A stretch of DNA of 25,295 nt from a virus. Position 1 is the stretch's first letter; each line of letters starts with the position of its first letter. The stretch covers positions 1-25,295 of the IMG/VR virus record IMGVR_UViG_3300026519_000061. One strand, 5' to 3'. Made by a program: the position numbers and the translations under genes. Positions 40 to 25,295 of the stretch are shown here, one piece after another. The notes beneath the pieces are model-generated. The model did no database searches, had not been told where the DNA came from, and worked only from the letters and a program-made list of their open reading frames with translations.

Positions 40-735
40 CTAAGGTAATTCAATCTTTACATCAATCACTTTCCCTAACACTCTAAAATCAGAAAAAATC
101 TTTTTGTAATCTTTGTTTAGTGGGTTTAGGTATGGCGTTGCCCCATCGTATTTTAGTTGTTTGAATGTAACTGCATCATTGCCATTTTCTTTGGCCACAA
201 CAAATATGCCGTTGGTCTCATCTCCTTTCTGCTCTGGATCAACTATGATGATCGTTCCTTCTGGAAAGCTAAAAGGACCAATGTCTGTAGTCATTGATTC
301 GCCCATCACTCGTAGTGCATACGTGTTGCTAGAATGCTTTTTGTAGCAAGCAATGGTCTCATATTCTTCTGACTCATCAACAAATGCAACATGCGTTTCA
401 CCTGCTTGTATCCAAGAAATTATTGGCACATACCCATAATTTTTGTGAATGGCTGGTTGTGTGTTGGACGAGATGTACTTCGCACCTGATTCATTAACTT
501 GGCTATTTGAATATGTTGATCCTACTTCTTCTGGATTAACACCATACAATAAGTACTCTGGTGTTGTGTCCAGTACATCACATAGTTTAGTGAGGTTTTT
601 TCCTGACGGTTGATGTAAATCTTGTTCCCAAAAAGTGATAGTAGATGTAGATACACCAACTAATTTTGCAAGTTTCGGATTGCTAAACCCTCTTACTTTT
701 CTAACCTCTCTTATTCTAATTCCGCATGTTTTCAT
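40..735 (-). CDS. CI/LexA-like phage repressor (HTH + S24 peptidase)
   Basis: Lysogeny repressor of 231 residues. Residues about 5-65 form an XRE-type helix-turn-helix (KLAKLVGVSTSTITFWEQ). Residues about 103-225 form a LexA/S24 autoprotease domain: Ala111-Gly112 is the likely self-cleavage site, Ser147 in MGESM the nucleophile and Lys192 in VTFKQL the general base. All three are intact, so RecA-stimulated cleavage and prophage induction are expected from family knowledge. It is divergent from a Cro-like gene at 817, the standard immunity arrangement. A TATAAT lies only 7 nt upstream of the ATG, so the message is probably leaderless, as for lambda cI from PRM. No convincing Shine-Dalgarno sits at normal spacing. 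The assignment is firm; operator specificity cannot be read from sequence. Confidence 0.95.
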   Translation of the reverse strand: MKTCGIRIREVRKVRGFSNPKLAKLVGVSTSTITFWEQDLHQPSGKNLTKLCDVLDTTPEYLLYGVNPEEVGSTYSNSQVNESGAKYISSNTQPAIHKNYGYVPIISWIQAGETHVAFVDESEEYETIACYKKHSSNTYALRVMGESMTTDIGPFSFPEGTIIIVDPEQKGDETNGIFVVAKENGNDAVTFKQLKYDGATPYLNPLNKDYKKIFSDFRVLGKVIDVKIELP

Positions 736-1341: not shown

Positions 1342-3282
1342 ATGAAAGATAAAGAAAATACAAGCTATCTTAAACAATATGGTAAAAAATTGATTGAAAA
1401 TGGTTATCAAATCGTGCCTATTCCTCCTGGCTATAAATACCCAAAGAATTTTCCACGATGGCAAAAGACAAACTTCAATAAAATTTTACCTAAATTACTT
1501 CAAAATGGTTCCGCGGATGCCTATGTTAGTATTAAGTTGGGGTATGGTGTATGTGCTTTAGATTTCGATATCCGCGATGAGTTTATTATTGATTTTATTA
1601 TTGATTGGTGCTTAGAAAACATAGGAGATACCCCTATAAGATATGGTAACAGACCTAAAGCAATGATGTTTTTTAGAACTGACGAGTTGATAAAAAAACG
1701 AACATCTCCTATGTACGTCGATTTGTTTGGTAATGACCATCAGATTGAAGTACTTGGCATTGGTCAACAGGCGTTAGTGTATGCTATCCATCCAACAACG
1801 GGTAAACCTTATGAGTGGAATGATTCTGGAATTGCCGACATTCACAAAGATAATCTACCGTTAATAACATCAAATCAGATAAATCAATTATTCAATTATT
1901 TAGAAGAAATTAAACCAAATAATTGGAAAATCAAAGAAAAAGCTACTTCTACTAATCTCAGTACAAGTCCTTTACTCAATTTAAAACCAACCTTAGACAT
2001 CTCCATTCAAAAAATAAAAGATACTTTATCTAATATTGACCCAGATAGTGAATATCACACTTGGTCAAAAGTTGGAATGGCTTTGTACCATCAATTTAAT
2101 GGCGATGTTCAAGGGTTTGAATTGTGGGACCATTGGAGCATGTTAGGCAGCAAGTATAATTCTTCTGAGATGGATCATAAGTGGTCAACTTTCAAAGCTA
2201 ACATAAAAACGACAAACCCAGTAACCTTTGCAACCGTACTACACCTAGTAAAAGATAAAAAAGAAGAAACGACAAACAAAATAGAAACAGGATTCAAGTT
2301 AGTTCATGCAAGTGATGTTTTAGACAAATTAGGTCCAATCGATTGGGCGGTAGAAAATTACTTTGAAAAGAACACTTTTGGTGTTCTTTATGGCGAACCT
2401 GGCTCATACAAATCATTTATTGCAATAGACATTGCTTTGCACATTGCCACAGACCAAATGTGGCATGGTAATGCGGTAAAGCAAGGACCCGCAATACTAA
2501 TTGAGGGTGAGGGTCACCAAGGGTTAGCCAGACGTTTGGCTGGCTGGTCAAAGGTTCATGATGTTGACCTATCGAATCACCCTGTGTATGTATCTCAAGC
2601 GGCTACCGCATTTCTTGATATGTCGGCAGTTAATGAAGTTTACCAAAGTGTGAAGAACATCGTAGAAATAACGGGTCAAAACCCGGCTGTGATTGTTGTT
2701 GATACTCTTGCCAGGAACTTTGGACCAGGGGACGAGAACAGCACCTCTGACATGAGCCAATTTATCAAGATGATAGATATTATTAGAAGTGAGTTTGAGT
2801 GCCTTGTTATGGTGGTGCATCACACAGGTAGATCAGATAAGAACAGAGCCAGAGGATCCATTGCTTTAGATGGTGGCGCTGACTTTATTTACCAAATCGA
2901 CAAGCCAAGCAACATGATGGCAGAGCTAACCTGCAAGAAGATGAAAGATGCAATTGAGCCAGAAAAGACCTATTTTCAAGCTCAGTCAATCTTAATTGAT
3001 ATGACAGAAGATCAGGAGATTACTTCTCTAGTTTTCGATAAAACAGAGGCACCTATTAATGTTCAAAAAGCACTTAAAGGCAATCAAGAATTGCTATATA
3101 AATTGGTTCAGAAGCATTGTTTTGAAGGATCTGTTGACAGAGGTCATATAGTCGAAATGGCAATTTTAGAGGGTATTTATAAATCAGAAAGTTCGGTTAG
3201 ATCAGCGTTAAACAGATTATCAGAAGCTATTTATATTGAACTAAAAAGTAATGAAATCATAGACTTAGGTGACCGGGGATGA
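1342..3282 (+). CDS. Replicative primase-polymerase / helicase fusion
   Basis: A 646-residue replication protein with three parts. Residues about 8-200 look like a bifunctional primase/polymerase (PrimPol) domain with an acidic LDFDI motif (Asp74, Asp76). Residues about 220-305 match the PriCT type of primase C-terminal domain (SEYHTWSKVGMALYHQFNG, ending KWSTF). Residues about 325-550 are a RecA-like, RepA/AAA_25-type hexameric helicase: Walker A GEPGSYKS (Lys357, Ser358), Walker B VIVVD (Asp454) and the VVHHTGR motif near residue 494. The last 70 residues resemble a winged helix. AAAGG precedes the ATG. The origin-like repeats begin right after the stop, so it probably loads at that origin, primes and unwinds. 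Domain names come from motif reading, and the PrimPol call is less certain than the helicase call. Confidence 0.85.
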   Translation: MKDKENTSYLKQYGKKLIENGYQIVPIPPGYKYPKNFPRWQKTNFNKILPKLLQNGSADAYVSIKLGYGVCALDFDIRDEFIIDFIIDWCLENIGDTPIRYGNRPKAMMFFRTDELIKKRTSPMYVDLFGNDHQIEVLGIGQQALVYAIHPTTGKPYEWNDSGIADIHKDNLPLITSNQINQLFNYLEEIKPNNWKIKEKATSTNLSTSPLLNLKPTLDISIQKIKDTLSNIDPDSEYHTWSKVGMALYHQFNGDVQGFELWDHWSMLGSKYNSSEMDHKWSTFKANIKTTNPVTFATVLHLVKDKKEETTNKIETGFKLVHASDVLDKLGPIDWAVENYFEKNTFGVLYGEPGSYKSFIAIDIALHIATDQMWHGNAVKQGPAILIEGEGHQGLARRLAGWSKVHDVDLSNHPVYVSQAATAFLDMSAVNEVYQSVKNIVEITGQNPAVIVVDTLARNFGPGDENSTSDMSQFIKMIDIIRSEFECLVMVVHHTGRSDKNRARGSIALDGGADFIYQIDKPSNMMAELTCKKMKDAIEPEKTYFQAQSILIDMTEDQEITSLVFDKTEAPINVQKALKGNQELLYKLVQKHCFEGSVDRGHIVEMAILEGIYKSESSVRSALNRLSEAIYIELKSNEIIDLGDRG

Positions 3283-3283
3283 T

Positions 3284-3437
3284 GCGTTTCAAAAATTTTG
3301 AAACGCTTTGCAACGCTAGCAAAAAACACCGTTGCAAAACTTTTGAAACGCTTTGCAACGGCAAAAGTTATCCACAGGCTAAACCACCATATAGGGTCGT
3401 TTCCGAGGTATTAAAGCGTTTCAAAGCTTTTGAAACG
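3284..3437. repeat. Iteron cluster of the origin
   Basis: A 23-bp perfect palindrome spans 3284-3306, with arms GCGTTTCAAAA and complement around one central A. TTTTGAAACGCTTTGCAACG occurs at 3296-3315 and again at 3341-3360, 45 bp apart. CCGTTGCAAA (3329-3338) and its complement (3352-3361) form an inverted pair around that second copy. A further palindrome with CGTTTCAAA arms spans 3417-3437. GCGTTGCA recurs at 3461. The shared half-site is CGTTKCAAA. Confidence 0.85.
3368..3376 (+). promoter_or_regulatory. Consensus DnaA box TTATCCACA
   Basis: An exact match to the high-affinity DnaA box lies between the second and third iteron groups. It suggests that the host DnaA protein takes part in opening this origin. 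Confidence 0.75.
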
Positions 3438-3480
3438 GTGTTCTGTTCAGTCTCAGCCGAGCGTTGCAGAAAAAAGGTGG

Positions 3481-3504
3481 TATATATATATATATATATA
3501 TATA
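3481..3504. repeat. (TA)12 tract, likely DNA-unwinding element
   Basis: Twelve uninterrupted TA units lie at the downstream edge of the iteron/DnaA-box region. TA steps melt easily, so this is the natural first opening site. The tract is also prone to length change, so its exact repeat number may be unreliable in an assembly. Confidence 0.7.
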
Positions 3505-3548
3505 CCCCTCTGTAACTGGGAGCCTTGGGCATTTTGGAGGATGTAAAA

Positions 3549-3833
3549 ATGATGAGTGATGGTTATCTAAAATATTATTTTTTACTGGTTGGTGAAACAG
3601 TAAATGGTTTTGAGATTTGGTATAGGCACAAACAAAGAAGAAAAAATGAATGGCACAATTATTATATTCGAAATGAATCACTCTCAGGAAGAAGGACTTG
3701 GAACTTCGCGCATAATGGTAAAAGATTTGCAAATGGGGAAAGCATTGAGAATCTAAAAAGGGAGCATCTGAAAGTTTTTAATTGGGCGATAAAAAAGATA
3801 ACCAACTTCCAAGAGGTATTTATAAATCGATGA
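3549..3833 (+). CDS. Uncharacterised small early/middle protein
   Basis: A 94-residue protein starting at ATG 3549, chosen because GGAGG (3536-3540) lies 8 nt before it. The sequence is basic and aromatic (GFEIWYRHKQRRKNEWHNYYIRNE; RRTWNFAHNGKRF) with no signal peptide or membrane segment. I do not recognise the family. It lies between the origin and the Mor/C-like activator, and its stop overlaps that gene in an ATGA arrangement, so the two are probably co-translated. A role in replication or the early-to-late switch is suggested only by position. Confidence 0.6.
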   Translation: MMSDGYLKYYFLLVGETVNGFEIWYRHKQRRKNEWHNYYIRNESLSGRRTWNFAHNGKRFANGESIENLKREHLKVFNWAIKKITNFQEVFINR

Positions 3834-4138
3834 AAAAAGAAATGAGTAATGATTTAAAAGCAGTCGGTGAAATTCTCCAAGAAAGTTTTTCTTCTCTCGA
3901 ATCTGATAAGCCAATATCTTTAGAAAAATTGAAAATTAAATTCCTAAAAAACCTTGGTGAAAATTTTAATGGTGACCGATTGTACATATCCAGCGATCAG
4001 AAGTTAATTGACAGAACAATGCTGGTGAGAAAATATTTATCCAGGAATTATTCAGTAAGAGAAATAAGTAAAGCCACAGGTATTCCTACAACAAGCGTTT
4101 TTAGAATTTTGAAAAAAATAGTCAGCTGTTCCGCTTAG
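3830..4138 (+). CDS. Mor/C-family late transcription activator
   Basis: A 102-residue protein read from the ATG overlapping the previous stop (ATGA). An upstream codon at 3782 is open but has less support. Residues about 43-53 (GENFNGDRLYI) match the conserved strand of the Mu Mor/C family. Residues about 66-96 (VRKYLSRNYSVREISKATGI followed by PTTSVFRIL) form its C-terminal helix-turn-helix. Mor and C act as dimers and recruit RNA polymerase to promoters lacking a good -35 box. The last codons of this gene lie inside the 46-bp element that recurs before gene I, and the lysis genes follow directly. This is the C - Plys - lysis order of Mu. I infer that it activates the two 46-bp elements. No similarity search was run. 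Confidence 0.75.
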   Translation: MKKEMSNDLKAVGEILQESFSSLESDKPISLEKLKIKFLKNLGENFNGDRLYISSDQKLIDRTMLVRKYLSRNYSVREISKATGIPTTSVFRILKKIVSCSA

Positions 4139-4171
4139 TGCCTAAAAAGTGGAACACTTTTTTGTTATGTT
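4126..4171 (+). promoter_or_regulatory. Late promoter element, copy 1 (before lysis)
   Basis: A 46-bp element, identical at 45 of 46 positions to 10876-10921. It holds a dyad: TGTTCCGCTT at 4127-4136 and AAGTGGAACA at 4147-4156, arms separated by 10 bp with one mismatch. A -10-like TATGTT follows at 4166-4171, and no -35 box is evident. A perfect 8-bp hairpin (AAAAAGTG, loop GAA, CACTTTTT; 4144-4162) overlaps the second arm and could also act as a weak terminator for the activator gene. The holin-like gene begins at 4196 with its own GGAG. Predicted to be bound by the Mor/C-like protein. Confidence 0.65.
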
Positions 4172-4195
4172 AGCGGGAACAATTTTGGAGTATCT

Positions 4196-4528
4196 ATGAA
4201 AAAAGCAGAAATAATCGGCAAAATAAAAAGACGCATTGGTGTAATTATCGCTTTTGTATTTGGCCTTTGGGTAATACTAAACCCAACAACATTCATCACA
4301 ATTGGTGGTGACATTGGCTATAAGGTATTCACGGCTATATGGGTATTGGTCATGGCTTATCTTGCGTTAAGTCAAATGGATAGGCACTGGTCAAAACCAG
4401 ATGATAAAAAAGAAGTTTCTCTTTCTAAATTTATGAAAGAAGAAGCGGATTCTGATAACAAGATGGTGATTTATGCCGTACTTATTTTTACTGTTGGCAA
4501 TATTCTGTCCGCAGTTATCTCAAGCTGA
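4196..4528 (+). CDS. Holin-like membrane protein
   Basis: A 110-residue protein with three hydrophobic segments: about residues 13-37, 43-60 and 89-109. A charged stretch (DRHWSKPDDKKE) lies between the second and third, and the N-terminus is basic. GGAG precedes the start at good spacing. It is the first gene after the late promoter and overlaps the lytic transglycosylase by 56 nt, the expected place for a holin that permeabilises the inner membrane and times lysis. Holins are too diverse for a family name here. The call rests on membrane topology and neighbours. Confidence 0.65.
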   Translation: MKKAEIIGKIKRRIGVIIAFVFGLWVILNPTTFITIGGDIGYKVFTAIWVLVMAYLALSQMDRHWSKPDDKKEVSLSKFMKEEADSDNKMVIYAVLIFTVGNILSAVISS

Positions 4529-5138
4529 GACAACAAAAAGATATGATGACCTGATTAAATCAGCATCAAATTTATATTTACCTTGGGATTGGCGTTGGTA
4601 TCGTTCGCAGCTTGAACAAGAAAGTTTATTAAACCCGTTAGCGGTATCACCAGTAGGAGCTAAGGGAATAGCACAATTCATGCCTGCAACATGGCAGGAT
4701 ATGCAAAGAGAATTAAAATTTACAGGTTCTCGAAATGATGCTTATAAGTCTATCCGTGCAGGCGCCTATTACAACAAGAAGCTAAGAAATATTTGGAAAT
4801 GGAAAAGACCTGAATCAGATAGAAGAAGATTAACATTTGCGAGTTACAACGCTGGAGCTGGAAATATTCTTAAAGCACAAAGGTATTGTGTTGGGTCCAG
4901 GAGATGGGAGTCAATACAAATATGTTTACACCAGGTAACAGGTGGTAATGCACTGGAGACAATAAACTATGTTAACACAATTGAAATCAGATTTGCAAAA
5001 CAGATTGGTAAAGATATTACTGGCAACAATATTGATTTTAGTTTTGATAATTTTTCTGAGTGGTGGCAAGCACAAGAGGAACTATGCAGCATTACAGATC
5101 AAGAAAGCGGATTTGAAGCAATGCCAGCAAGTCAATAA
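4473..5138 (+). CDS. Lytic transglycosylase endolysin with signal peptide
   Basis: A 221-residue peptidoglycan-cleaving enzyme of the SLT/GH23 type. Residues 1-18 are a hydrophobic leader ending LSQA before Glu19, a likely signal-peptidase site, although the n-region has no positive charge. The catalytic glutamate is Glu50 in LEQESLLNP, followed by GAKGIAQFMPATW (about residues 62-74) and FASYNAGAGN near residue 128. Secretion by a leader would make lysis less dependent on a large holin hole. An in-frame stop just upstream fixes the start at 4473. The gene overlaps the holin by 56 nt and the Rz-like gene by 170 nt, so its last 56 codons are read in two frames. Confidence 0.88.
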   Translation: MPYLFLLLAIFCPQLSQAETTKRYDDLIKSASNLYLPWDWRWYRSQLEQESLLNPLAVSPVGAKGIAQFMPATWQDMQRELKFTGSRNDAYKSIRAGAYYNKKLRNIWKWKRPESDRRRLTFASYNAGAGNILKAQRYCVGSRRWESIQICLHQVTGGNALETINYVNTIEIRFAKQIGKDITGNNIDFSFDNFSEWWQAQEELCSITDQESGFEAMPASQ

Positions 5139-5376
5139 AGAAGGAATTGAAAAGAGAGACGAATTAATAATCAGAATTAAAGAGCTTGTTGAAATACAGA
5201 AAAACACAGAAAAAAATATTTTAGAGGCTAAAAAAAGAATTGAGATTTATGAAATTACAGCGAAAACACAACTGGAAAAGAAGATTGAAAAACTTACAAG
5301 CCTACCTATCAATGATTGTGATGACATGCCTATTAGCGATGATGTTATCGAGCTGTGGTACCAGTCAGATTATTAA
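4969..5376 (+). CDS. Rz-like inner-membrane spanin
   Basis: A 135-residue protein with one N-terminal membrane anchor (KILLATILILVLIIFLSGG, about residues 15-33). A long charged coiled-coil-like periplasmic region follows, ending in an acidic tail (CDDMPISDDVIELW). This is the i-spanin architecture that bridges to an outer-membrane lipoprotein at the last step of Gram-negative lysis. GGAG lies 10 nt before the ATG. The first 170 nt lie inside the transglycosylase gene in another frame. The last 128 nt contain the start of the Rz1-like gene, the classical nested spanin arrangement. Confidence 0.8.
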   Translation: MLTQLKSDLQNRLVKILLATILILVLIIFLSGGKHKRNYAALQIKKADLKQCQQVNKEGIEKRDELIIRIKELVEIQKNTEKNILEAKKRIEIYEITAKTQLEKKIEKLTSLPINDCDDMPISDDVIELWYQSDY

Positions 5377-5584
5377 AACAGAATATGTTGATGTACCAGT
5401 GCCTCAAATTATCCCCATTCCTGTAAAACTTACACAACCCATTATGAAACCAAAAAAAGAAAAATTCACATGTGGAACAACCAGAGATATTTTGGTACCC
5501 ACACTTTTTAGCAAATTAGGCCAATGCAATAACAAACTGTTGGAGATTAAAAACTTAAAAGTAGATGATAAAAATGATGGATGA
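5249..5584 (+). CDS. Rz1-like outer-membrane lipoprotein spanin
   Basis: A 111-residue protein from the ATG at 5249; a TTG three codons earlier is also open. A basic n-region is followed by a hydrophobic stretch and the lipobox LSSC, with Cys36 as the expected lipidated residue. The mature part has a proline-rich segment (VDVPVPQIIPIPVKL) typical of o-spanins. It starts inside the Rz-like gene in another frame and ends beyond it. With Rz it would fuse inner and outer membranes during lysis. This lipobox protein is also the best evidence in the window for a Gram-negative host. Confidence 0.8.
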   Translation: MKLQRKHNWKRRLKNLQAYLSMIVMTCLLAMMLSSCGTSQIIKTEYVDVPVPQIIPIPVKLTQPIMKPKKEKFTCGTTRDILVPTLFSKLGQCNNKLLEIKNLKVDDKNDG

Positions 5585-23881: not shown

Positions 23882-23930
23882 TGGTGGTTATGGGTGGACT
23901 TGAACCACCGACCCCGGCATTATGAATGCC
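23882..23930 (-). other. Attachment site core: 3' half of tRNA-Met (CAT)
   Basis: On the minus strand this 49-bp segment reads as tRNA from within the anticodon stem to the CCA end. It has loop TTCATAA with anticodon CAT, a T arm with GGTGG/CCACC stem and TTCAAGT loop, acceptor strand CATAACC, then ACCA. The pair at tRNA positions 27/43 (A against G) breaks just where identity should stop. There is no D arm upstream, so it is not a complete tRNA gene. Phages integrating in tRNA genes carry such 3' segments to restore the gene. With tail genes on one side and the integrase on the other, this looks like attP rather than attL or attR. Confidence 0.8.
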
Positions 23931-23964
23931 TGTAACATTCGTTAAAAATCAAAATGTTACAGGC
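23928..23964. repeat. 12-bp inverted repeat overlapping the attachment core
   Basis: GCCTGTAACATT (23928-23939) and its exact complement (23953-23964) flank a 13-bp spacer. The left arm shares its first three bases with the end of the tRNA identity. Placement suggests integrase or directionality-factor binding. A terminator role is unlikely because neither strand shows a T run after the stem. Confidence 0.55.
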
Positions 23965-24051: not shown

Positions 24052-25098
24052 TCAATCTACCGCCTTATGTTCTTCAATTTTTGTATTGTATCTTTTTTTC
24101 ATTGACTCAGTAAGTCCAGCAATATCCTTATCTTTACTATCCGAAATTCCCTTGCTTTTGAGCAAGTGCAAATTCCAGTAGCCCTTTCCAACTTTCTTTT
24201 TTAGCCTACCCATTGCAGACTTTAAACCATCTGATTTAATTTTCTCACCGTTTTGATTTGTGAAAATGAATTTATCCTCGTTTAGAACTGTAATTTTTGC
24301 TCTTGGTCTTAGTGCCTTAGCTTTATCTATGGCAAGTCGTAAACGTGGCGTTATAGTTATGTAAGTATGTTTTGACCCTTTCGTGCGTCTTATCAATAAT
24401 TTATCGCCTAGGTCGTCTGATTCTCGCAAATTTCGCACCTCTATCGAACGGCATGCACAAAGGTATGCAACTTCAAAAAATGCTTGCAATAATGGACTTG
24501 CTTGGTTCAATTGTTTTGAATATTCTGTATGTGTAACGTAACGGGTGTTTTTTGGTGCTTTAAGTTTTTCAATGTTTAATATTGGGTTGATAGCAATGCT
24601 CAACCCTGATACAAAATTCAACCCCCATGTTATCATTGATGACAAATAAGCCACTTCATAATTTACGGCACTTTCCCCTTTTTTTCCTTTGGCTTTGTAT
24701 TGCTCTAGGCGTTTTTGCATTAACTCCTGCAAAAATGGCTTGGTTAATTTATTCAATGGCATTAATCCAAATTTAATTGTGTTACTTCCTTTTTTAATTT
24801 CATGATCTAAAATTCTTGCAGCAACTATATACCGCGGTTGTGTGTTTACACTTAATTTTTTGAATTTCGGCGATTGTTGAAATTTTTCTGAAAGCCATTG
24901 TAGCGTGTTTTTTTCTGGCTTGTTTTCAATTAATCTTATTATGTTTTGGTAACTTGACCATATTTGGTCTATGCTTTGGCGTGTTGTGCCGACTTGATAA
25001 TTGTATTTCACGCATTTTATTTGTTTTTGAAACCGCACATAATAACCTTTATCTATGTGGCAATTTGGCGGTAGTTGTTTTCTAAATCGAGTGGTCAT
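24052..25098 (-). CDS. Tyrosine-family phage integrase
   Basis: A 348-residue site-specific recombinase. Residues about 60-165 form a core-binding (SAM-like) domain. The catalytic part begins near 185: Arg217 in CACRSIEVRNL, a lysine in the RRTKGSK hairpin (about 240), His311-Leu-Leu-Lys314 in NLHLLKSKGISD, and Tyr337 in MKKRYNTK. The usual HxxR is HxxK, as in a known clade with HDLKAKGISD-type motifs. The second histidine/tryptophan before the tyrosine appears to be Leu329. Its 3' end faces the tRNA-Met attachment core about 120 bp away, so it presumably recombines there. Its ATG overlaps the stop of an upstream frame (ATGA). Confidence 0.92.
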   Translation of the reverse strand: MTTRFRKQLPPNCHIDKGYYVRFQKQIKCVKYNYQVGTTRQSIDQIWSSYQNIIRLIENKPEKNTLQWLSEKFQQSPKFKKLSVNTQPRYIVAARILDHEIKKGSNTIKFGLMPLNKLTKPFLQELMQKRLEQYKAKGKKGESAVNYEVAYLSSMITWGLNFVSGLSIAINPILNIEKLKAPKNTRYVTHTEYSKQLNQASPLLQAFFEVAYLCACRSIEVRNLRESDDLGDKLLIRRTKGSKHTYITITPRLRLAIDKAKALRPRAKITVLNEDKFIFTNQNGEKIKSDGLKSAMGRLKKKVGKGYWNLHLLKSKGISDSKDKDIAGLTESMKKRYNTKIEEHKAVD

Positions 25099-25295
25099 AC
25101 GGAATATTCATCATTTATATTTTGCTTGGATAAGCCCAGCCCTTTGTTTATAGCATCAACTGTGGTAGAAACGCCATTTTTAACGACTAGCCTGAATATT
25201 TCATAGTCCCTAAAAATATTAACAAAAAAATCAAAGACGTTTGAAAACTAAAAAAGTAGATGGGATTTCACAAAAATAGAGGGATTTTGTGCCAT
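25095..25295 (-). pseudogene. Amber-interrupted small ORF translationally coupled to int
   Basis: On the minus strand an ATG at the very end of the window opens a frame (MAQNPSIFVKSHLLF), meets TAG at 25250-25248, and then stays open for 50 codons (FSNVFDFFVNIFRDYEIFRL ... KQNINDEYSV). It ends in a TGA overlapping the integrase ATG. The second part has no ATG, GTG or TTG of its own. If the window closes into a circle, GGAG from base 6-3 would lie just before this ATG, after the repressor gene. It may be a decayed or readthrough small regulator such as an excisionase, or partly noncoding. Confidence 0.35.

Follow-up and report, generated by a model that had tools for sequence, protein, structure and literature searches.

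The DNA stretch analysed here, referred to as the window, is the entire contig C125 (25,295 bp) within a 3.25-Mb host assembly, and by its gene content it is classed as a temperate tailed phage of ~25 kb. The phage host is best explained as a member of the family of Marinicella (Gammaproteobacteria), and a nucleotide search of phages returned no relative of the window. The host assembly lacks a 16S gene. An S24/CI-type repressor gene (40-735, minus strand), a gene for a Cro-like protein (817-1014) and a gene for a ribbon-helix-helix (RHH)-type regulator (1011-1232) are located ahead of the replication gene rep (1342-3282, plus strand), with the RHH gene just upstream of rep. Lysis genes and genes for terminase, portal, protease, capsid, connector and tail proteins, including a tape measure on the tail side, are all present in the window, as is a tyrosine integrase (24052-25098, minus strand). 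The lysis genes (4473-5584), which encode an SLT-domain endolysin and a candidate Rz1-like LysC spanin, lie between the proposed origin region and terminase; in lambda, lysis genes likewise lie between the origin region and terminase. Two small ORFs (3549-4138) directly follow the proposed origin region, the first without a family match and the second with only weak HTH matches below the cut-off.

A fragment of ~51 nt resembling the 3' portion of a tRNA-Met(CAT)-like gene was read by eye at 23882-23932 (minus strand), in the gap that separates the integrase from the last tail-side ORF, and is likely attP. With a likely attP between the tail side and the integrase, the contig shows an excised or circular arrangement. 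No full tRNA was found in the window, and the tRNA fragment had no long match elsewhere in the assembly. The last 94 bp (25202-25295) match, at 99%, a stretch of contig C10 that adjoins a transposase gene, and the contig end seems to be an insertion-sequence copy between the integrase and the repressor.

Rep is a protein of 646 aa that combines an AEP/PrimPol N-terminal part, a PriCT-2 domain, an RSF1010 RepA-type helicase of RecA fold and a C-terminal winged helix. Pfam matches to PriCT_2 (4e-19) and AAA_25 (9e-32) were both well above their cut-offs; the Prim-Pol Pfam match fell below its cut-off, and phrog_1156 DNA primase matched at 7e-48 over aa 2-312. Protein-pattern scans with the single sequence returned nothing, and matches were obtained by alignment-based scans. 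The AF2 model of Rep has a mean pLDDT of 79, with low confidence over the first 67 residues, and its best PDB fold match was RSF1010 RepA (1nlf, E 1e-12). On sequence and model, the helicase is assigned to the RepA family, predicted to be hexameric, and not to SF3. The C-terminal winged-helix domain (aa 578-646; 3073-3279, plus strand) forms an AF2 block with pLDDT 65-96 and H-H-H-E-E topology, and residues 580-641 were modelled as a winged helix both in the full-length protein and in isolation. This domain aligned to the winged helices of MecI/BlaI, the MCM C-terminus, ORC2 and LexA with VIA-align Z 8-10; kinship with these proteins was rejected, as the matches show fold only. No second recognised replication protein adjoins rep, and in particular there is no separate RepC.

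A cluster of repeats at 3284-3504 directly follows rep, as described in the original prediction, with its first palindrome beginning one base past the rep stop codon. All of the elements listed there (motif groups, a 23-bp palindrome, a 20-bp direct repeat, a DnaA box and (TA)12) were recovered in place. The cluster is built from nine copies of a half-site, with the consensus CGTTKCAAA in the window, arranged in the order + - - + - - + - + over 190 bp. Palindrome 1 (3284-3306) is perfect over 23 bp and contains half-sites at 3285-3293 (+) and 3297-3305 (-), followed by an extra half-site CGTTGCAAA at 3307-3315 (-), 10 bp from the copy at 3297. Palindrome 2 (3330-3350) pairs half-sites at 3330-3338 (+) and 3342-3350 (-), and it too is accompanied by an extra half-site CGTTGCAAA (3352-3360, -), 10 bp from the copy at 3342 and within the 20-bp direct repeat TTTTGAAACGCTTTGCAACG (3296-3315 and 3341-3360, spacing 45). 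Palindrome 3 (3417-3437) comprises half-sites at 3417-3425 (+) and 3429-3437 (-), and a single half-site with one mismatch, CGTTGCAGA, lies at 3462-3470 (+). The two half-site versions had been taken to mean either one protein of relaxed specificity or two binders. One binder tolerating G or T is the simpler account, since palindrome 2 has one GTTGC and one GTTTC half in the same 9+3+9 arrangement as the all-GTTTC palindromes.

Some of the half-sites are embedded in a large stem-loop just 3' of rep with a single-stranded DNA fold z of -10. Its left arm of 30 nt (3325-3354, +) is complementary at 27 of 30 positions to the right arm (3413-3442, -), which contains palindrome 3, and the arms are separated by a spacer or loop of 58 bp (3355-3412). 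The segment 3361-3416, which overlaps the spacer, has a GC fraction of 0.43, above most of the contig, and is not AT-rich. The spacer holds the sole copy in the contig of the exact DnaA-box consensus TTATCCACA (3368-3376, +); by chance, 0.28 exact copies are expected per contig and 0.001 per 221-bp segment, the latter figure applying to a segment picked post hoc. To the right of the half-sites, (TA)12 (3481-3504) is enclosed in the palindrome GG-(TA)12-CC (3479-3506). No other 24- or 30-bp window of the contig is less stable than this tract, although at 50-100 bp the least stable stretch lies elsewhere, and the tract is a plausible candidate melting site. A DnaA box and an AT-rich tract, both looked for in iteron origins, are each present as sequence in 3284-3504, while use of DnaA is hypothetical. 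Rfam contained no family matching at the cluster.

The cluster exceeds chance by several measures. In the contig, 0.31 exact copies of the half-site CGTTTCAAA would be expected by chance and five are present; none of 100 shuffles reached five. The degenerate 21-bp palindrome CGTTKCAAANNNTTTGMAACG is found three times in the 3.25-Mb host assembly, each time within 3284-3504, and not once in 60 related genomes. Two exact palindrome matches in IMG/VR lay inside unrelated coding DNA and were taken as chance. Scored by 8-mer pairs without the TA tract, 3278-3478 reached 58, compared with a mean of 2.3 and a maximum of 13 in 1000 shuffles, and among all 300-bp tiles in the contig, the richest in repeats falls at the cluster (score 110; best elsewhere 18). 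GC skew, which had been suggested as a check, was uninformative: its course reflects gene orientation, and 3284-3504 does not stand out.

We compared the window with loci gathered by similarity to the helicase-domain protein alone, taking the best 80 relatives per collection and reducing these RepA-type helicase loci to a non-redundant set of 109. A metagene of 8-mer pair scores in 300-bp tiles, set against dinucleotide shuffles, gave one sharp peak at the helicase stop codon, with a mean score of 30 versus 2 in shuffles across the 109 loci. In the tile at -100, 62% of these loci exceeded shuffles by more than 10, while at most 5% did so in tiles at least 200 bp after or at least 400 bp before the stop codon, up to 1.8 kb away; 38% of loci were below the strict threshold in the tile at -100, the best one. 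Within the 250 bp past the stop codon, the median was 5.2 pairs per 100 bp, compared with 0.8 for the remaining intergenic gaps at these loci (P 2e-12). Most relatives' genes, in other bacteria and phages, are followed by a comparable cluster, in other letters, at the same place. The repeated motif differs between lineages, and neighbouring same-strand copies at the helicase loci are mostly 9-12 bp apart, or about one helical turn.

These comparisons bear on what the cluster does. It could be an operator at which CI, the Cro-like protein or the RHH regulator controls the genes after 3549, with no origin function. Repressors typically have palindromic half-sites, the next ORF begins ~45 bp past the TA tract, and an RHH-type regulator is encoded just upstream of rep. 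However, no copies of the half-site motif were found in the control region upstream of rep or around the CI, Cro and RHH genes, and promoter-like matches numbered 5 in 3000-4300 against 4.5 expected, with none in 3284-3549. In relatives, the downstream gene varies (terminase small subunit-like, integrase or NTP-PPase) and the upstream helicase is constant. An operator for downstream genes is hard to reconcile with a cluster that stays with the helicase while those genes change, and we consider this explanation quite improbable.

The position of the first palindrome one base past the stop codon, with an RNA fold of -11.4 kcal/mol, also suggests a transcription terminator or mRNA-stabilising hairpins ending the rep transcript, and one terminator-like match was found at 3417-3437. 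Palindromes 1 and 2 are not followed by a T-run, however, and a terminator needs no nine half-sites over 190 bp at fixed spacing. Many relatives, moreover, carry direct repeats rather than hairpins past the stop codon. As the purpose of the cluster, this is very improbable, and a terminator role would be at most secondary. Repeat clusters can also be centromeres, and a partition site of a plasmid-like prophage would accord with a contig that runs from tail through attP to integrase, as expected of an excised circle. Against this, no partition protein was present among the proteins scanned, a tyrosine integrase is encoded, and from lineage to lineage the cluster stays with the helicase gene; of the explanations weighed, we give this one the least credence.

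Motif similarity between loci tracked the C-terminal domain when the helicase core was controlled for, although the correlation is small (partial Mantel r 0.11, P 0.002); the reverse test, of the helicase core given the C-terminus, gave P 0.06. A peak at the helicase 3' end and a motif that tracks the C-terminus are what is predicted if the winged helix at the C-terminus recognises an origin there, and on the modelled fold this domain of Rep is likely the half-site reader. We conclude that the temperate phage very probably starts its replication at 3284-3504, with Rep, from the adjoining upstream gene, acting on this origin. The assignment was made from sequence and is supported independently by the comparison of 109 helicase loci.

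Whether this origin is led by Rep or by the host is a separate question. Iteron plasmids often use DnaA, and an exact consensus box lies in the spacer; the origin could be genuine with host DnaA as the main initiator at TTATCCACA, leaving Rep as helicase and primase only and the CGTTKCAAA sites as accessory. The single box, however, and the lack of enrichment of strict boxes around relatives' clusters (present in 1 of 109 relatives) make this unlikely. The DnaA box of the original prediction is thus exact and sits within the spacer, but it was rejected as a family feature, for which reason DnaA dependence is unproven; the box would be a possible help and not a defining part.

Nor is the large stem-loop a family feature: 22 of 30 pairs are reached at only 5% of loci, indicating that it is a trait of the window phage and of L095, a Granulosicoccaceae MAG whose protein is 40% identical to Rep over 645 aa. 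L095 and L094, a Nitrospinia MAG (42% identity over 616 aa; the closest by score among the loci collected), have the nearest full-length proteins. In L095, half-sites of the form CGAAGAAA(T/C) run from the stop codon in the order + - - + - + - +, and its inverted repeat is paired at 26 of 30 positions around a 49-nt loop, compared with 27 of 30 and 58 nt in the window; these are the two highest stem scores among the 109 loci tested (108 relatives and the window). Opposed half-sites build most of the arms, so the stem may be a by-product of half-site order, and the conserved trait of the window and L095, as read from the two sequences, is half-site order and spacing. Alignment of the two clusters as DNA was uninformative, as expected for different half-sites. 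L094 carries mainly direct repeats, mostly on one strand, and not palindromes, indicating that the exact architecture is not universal and that members of the clade differ in geometry. Two named isolates, Salicola phage CGphi29 and Idiomarinaceae phage 1N2-2, share the layout: their primase-helicase gene is followed by a gap of ~240-265 bp filled with half-sites. In genomes of the host family (L003-L006), RepA-type helicase genes that stand alone were also seen with an inverted repeat immediately past the stop codon; in L004, a small HTH gene precedes the helicase and an integrase-like ORF follows it. By their sequences, these loci resemble phage-satellite islands to which the same rule of origin placement applies.

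A further element recurs at 27 of the 109 loci, where TATAGGG/CCCTATA or a C4-6..TA..G4-6 element lies near the stop codon. Such C/G palindromes are ~25 times denser near the stop than elsewhere (0.59 versus 0.024 per kb), and most of those listed have inverted half-sites on either side. The form C4-6(TATA/TTTA)G4-6 was seen 3' of the helicase in L031, L058, L094, L095, L098, L103, L114, L156, L172 and others, and together with its flanking half-sites it is a candidate hairpin for opening or priming. No clear copy is present in the window, whose GG(TA)nCC palindrome is of opposite polarity; tentatively, ACCACCATATAGGGT (3383-3397, +) may be a degenerate version of the relatives' C-rich/TATA/G-rich palindrome.

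From the arrangement of sites and domains, we infer how initiation would proceed. Rep would first bind the CGTTKCAAA half-sites through its C-terminal winged helix, in pairs on the 9+3+9 palindromes and also on the extra half-sites about one helical turn away. The inverted half-site sets at 3285-3360 and 3417-3470 would hold Rep complexes on either side of the 58-bp spacer, and their symmetry may allow the spacer to be extruded as a stem-loop. Duplex opening could occur at (TA)12 or in the spacer, possibly with help from host DnaA at 3368-3376. Next, the helicase domain, a hexamer of the RepA type, would load onto the opened strands, the PrimPol/PriCT-2 part would prime, and the host replisome would extend.

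That an origin may lie 3' of an initiator-helicase gene is already known from SaPIs/PICIs, SCC elements and pRN1. The family-wide origin location for the RepA-type class, together with its variable motifs, appears to be new relative to the part of the literature covered. More broadly, the RepA-type primase-helicases of phages and islands may constitute one widespread class of self-contained replicon, in which each gene carries its own 3' origin, the C-terminal winged helix that reads it evolves fast and shifts in specificity along with the half-sites, and many lineages add a C4-6(TATA/TTTA)G4-6 palindrome with inverted half-sites as an opening or priming hairpin; we regard this generalisation as evenly poised between right and wrong. 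The origins of most uncultured phages are, to our knowledge, unknown, and a rule to look 3' of the RepA-type helicase gene would make hundreds of origins predictable from the protein alone. Matched pairs of protein and DNA would allow the evolution of initiator specificity to be studied, and single-gene replicons are possible compact vectors for non-model bacteria.

The description of the cluster as a plasmid-like iteron origin proved imprecise. Unlike the iteron plasmids of RepE and TrfA, the window has no tandem direct iterons of ~20 bp and only one 20-bp direct pair, and its layout of inverted half-sites is that of the PrimPol initiator-helicase modules of phages, PICIs and pRN1. RSF1010 oriV offers a likeness in the helicase, as Rep shares the fold of RSF1010 RepA (1nlf/1g8y), and in the jobs of primase, helicase and repeat reader that are divided there among RepB', RepA and RepC (PMC4234260). 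In the window, these functions are in one polypeptide with no separate RepC, and the sites are inverted 9-bp half-sites rather than RSF1010 iterons. PrimPol proteins with a RepA helicase and a winged helix have been described as a class (PrimQH-type primases), with the winged helix suggested to recognise the origin; the likeness to Rep is by domain composition only (PMC5862659). In SCCmec, repeats directly downstream of the cch2 helicase gene are bound by the C-terminal domain of Cch2, and an origin there is supported (PMC7581432), but Cch2 belongs to another helicase family and has a separate primase-polymerase. In PICIs/SaPIs, the pri-rep-ori module has its origin immediately 3' of the initiator gene and confers Rep-dependent plasmid maintenance (PMC6092414), a likeness that the window shows by position only. 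Two sets of short repeats flank a spacer in both, with the C-terminal domain as the expected reader (PMC6092414, PMC7581432). The window differs in that its spacer is not AT-rich and its AT tract lies outside the sets, to the right; its helicase is of the RepA-type RecA fold, and, having virion genes of its own, it is a whole phage rather than a helper-reliant satellite. Like pRN1 ORF904 and the protein of Bordetella BIP-1/BPP-1, Rep unites an archaeo-eukaryotic primase, a helicase and a C-terminal winged helix in one protein, although the helicases of pRN1 and BIP-1 are SF3 (PMC4234260) and that of the window is RSF1010 RepA-like. Replication of pRN1 requires a stem-loop 3' of orf904, with a 21-nt stem and a 58-nt loop, and a 3' stem-loop like it has been noted in phage BIP-1 (PMC4234260). 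The window likewise has a large inverted repeat just 3' of the gene, with a ~30-nt stem and a 58-nt loop, differing from that of pRN1 in that its stem is made of repeated half-sites.
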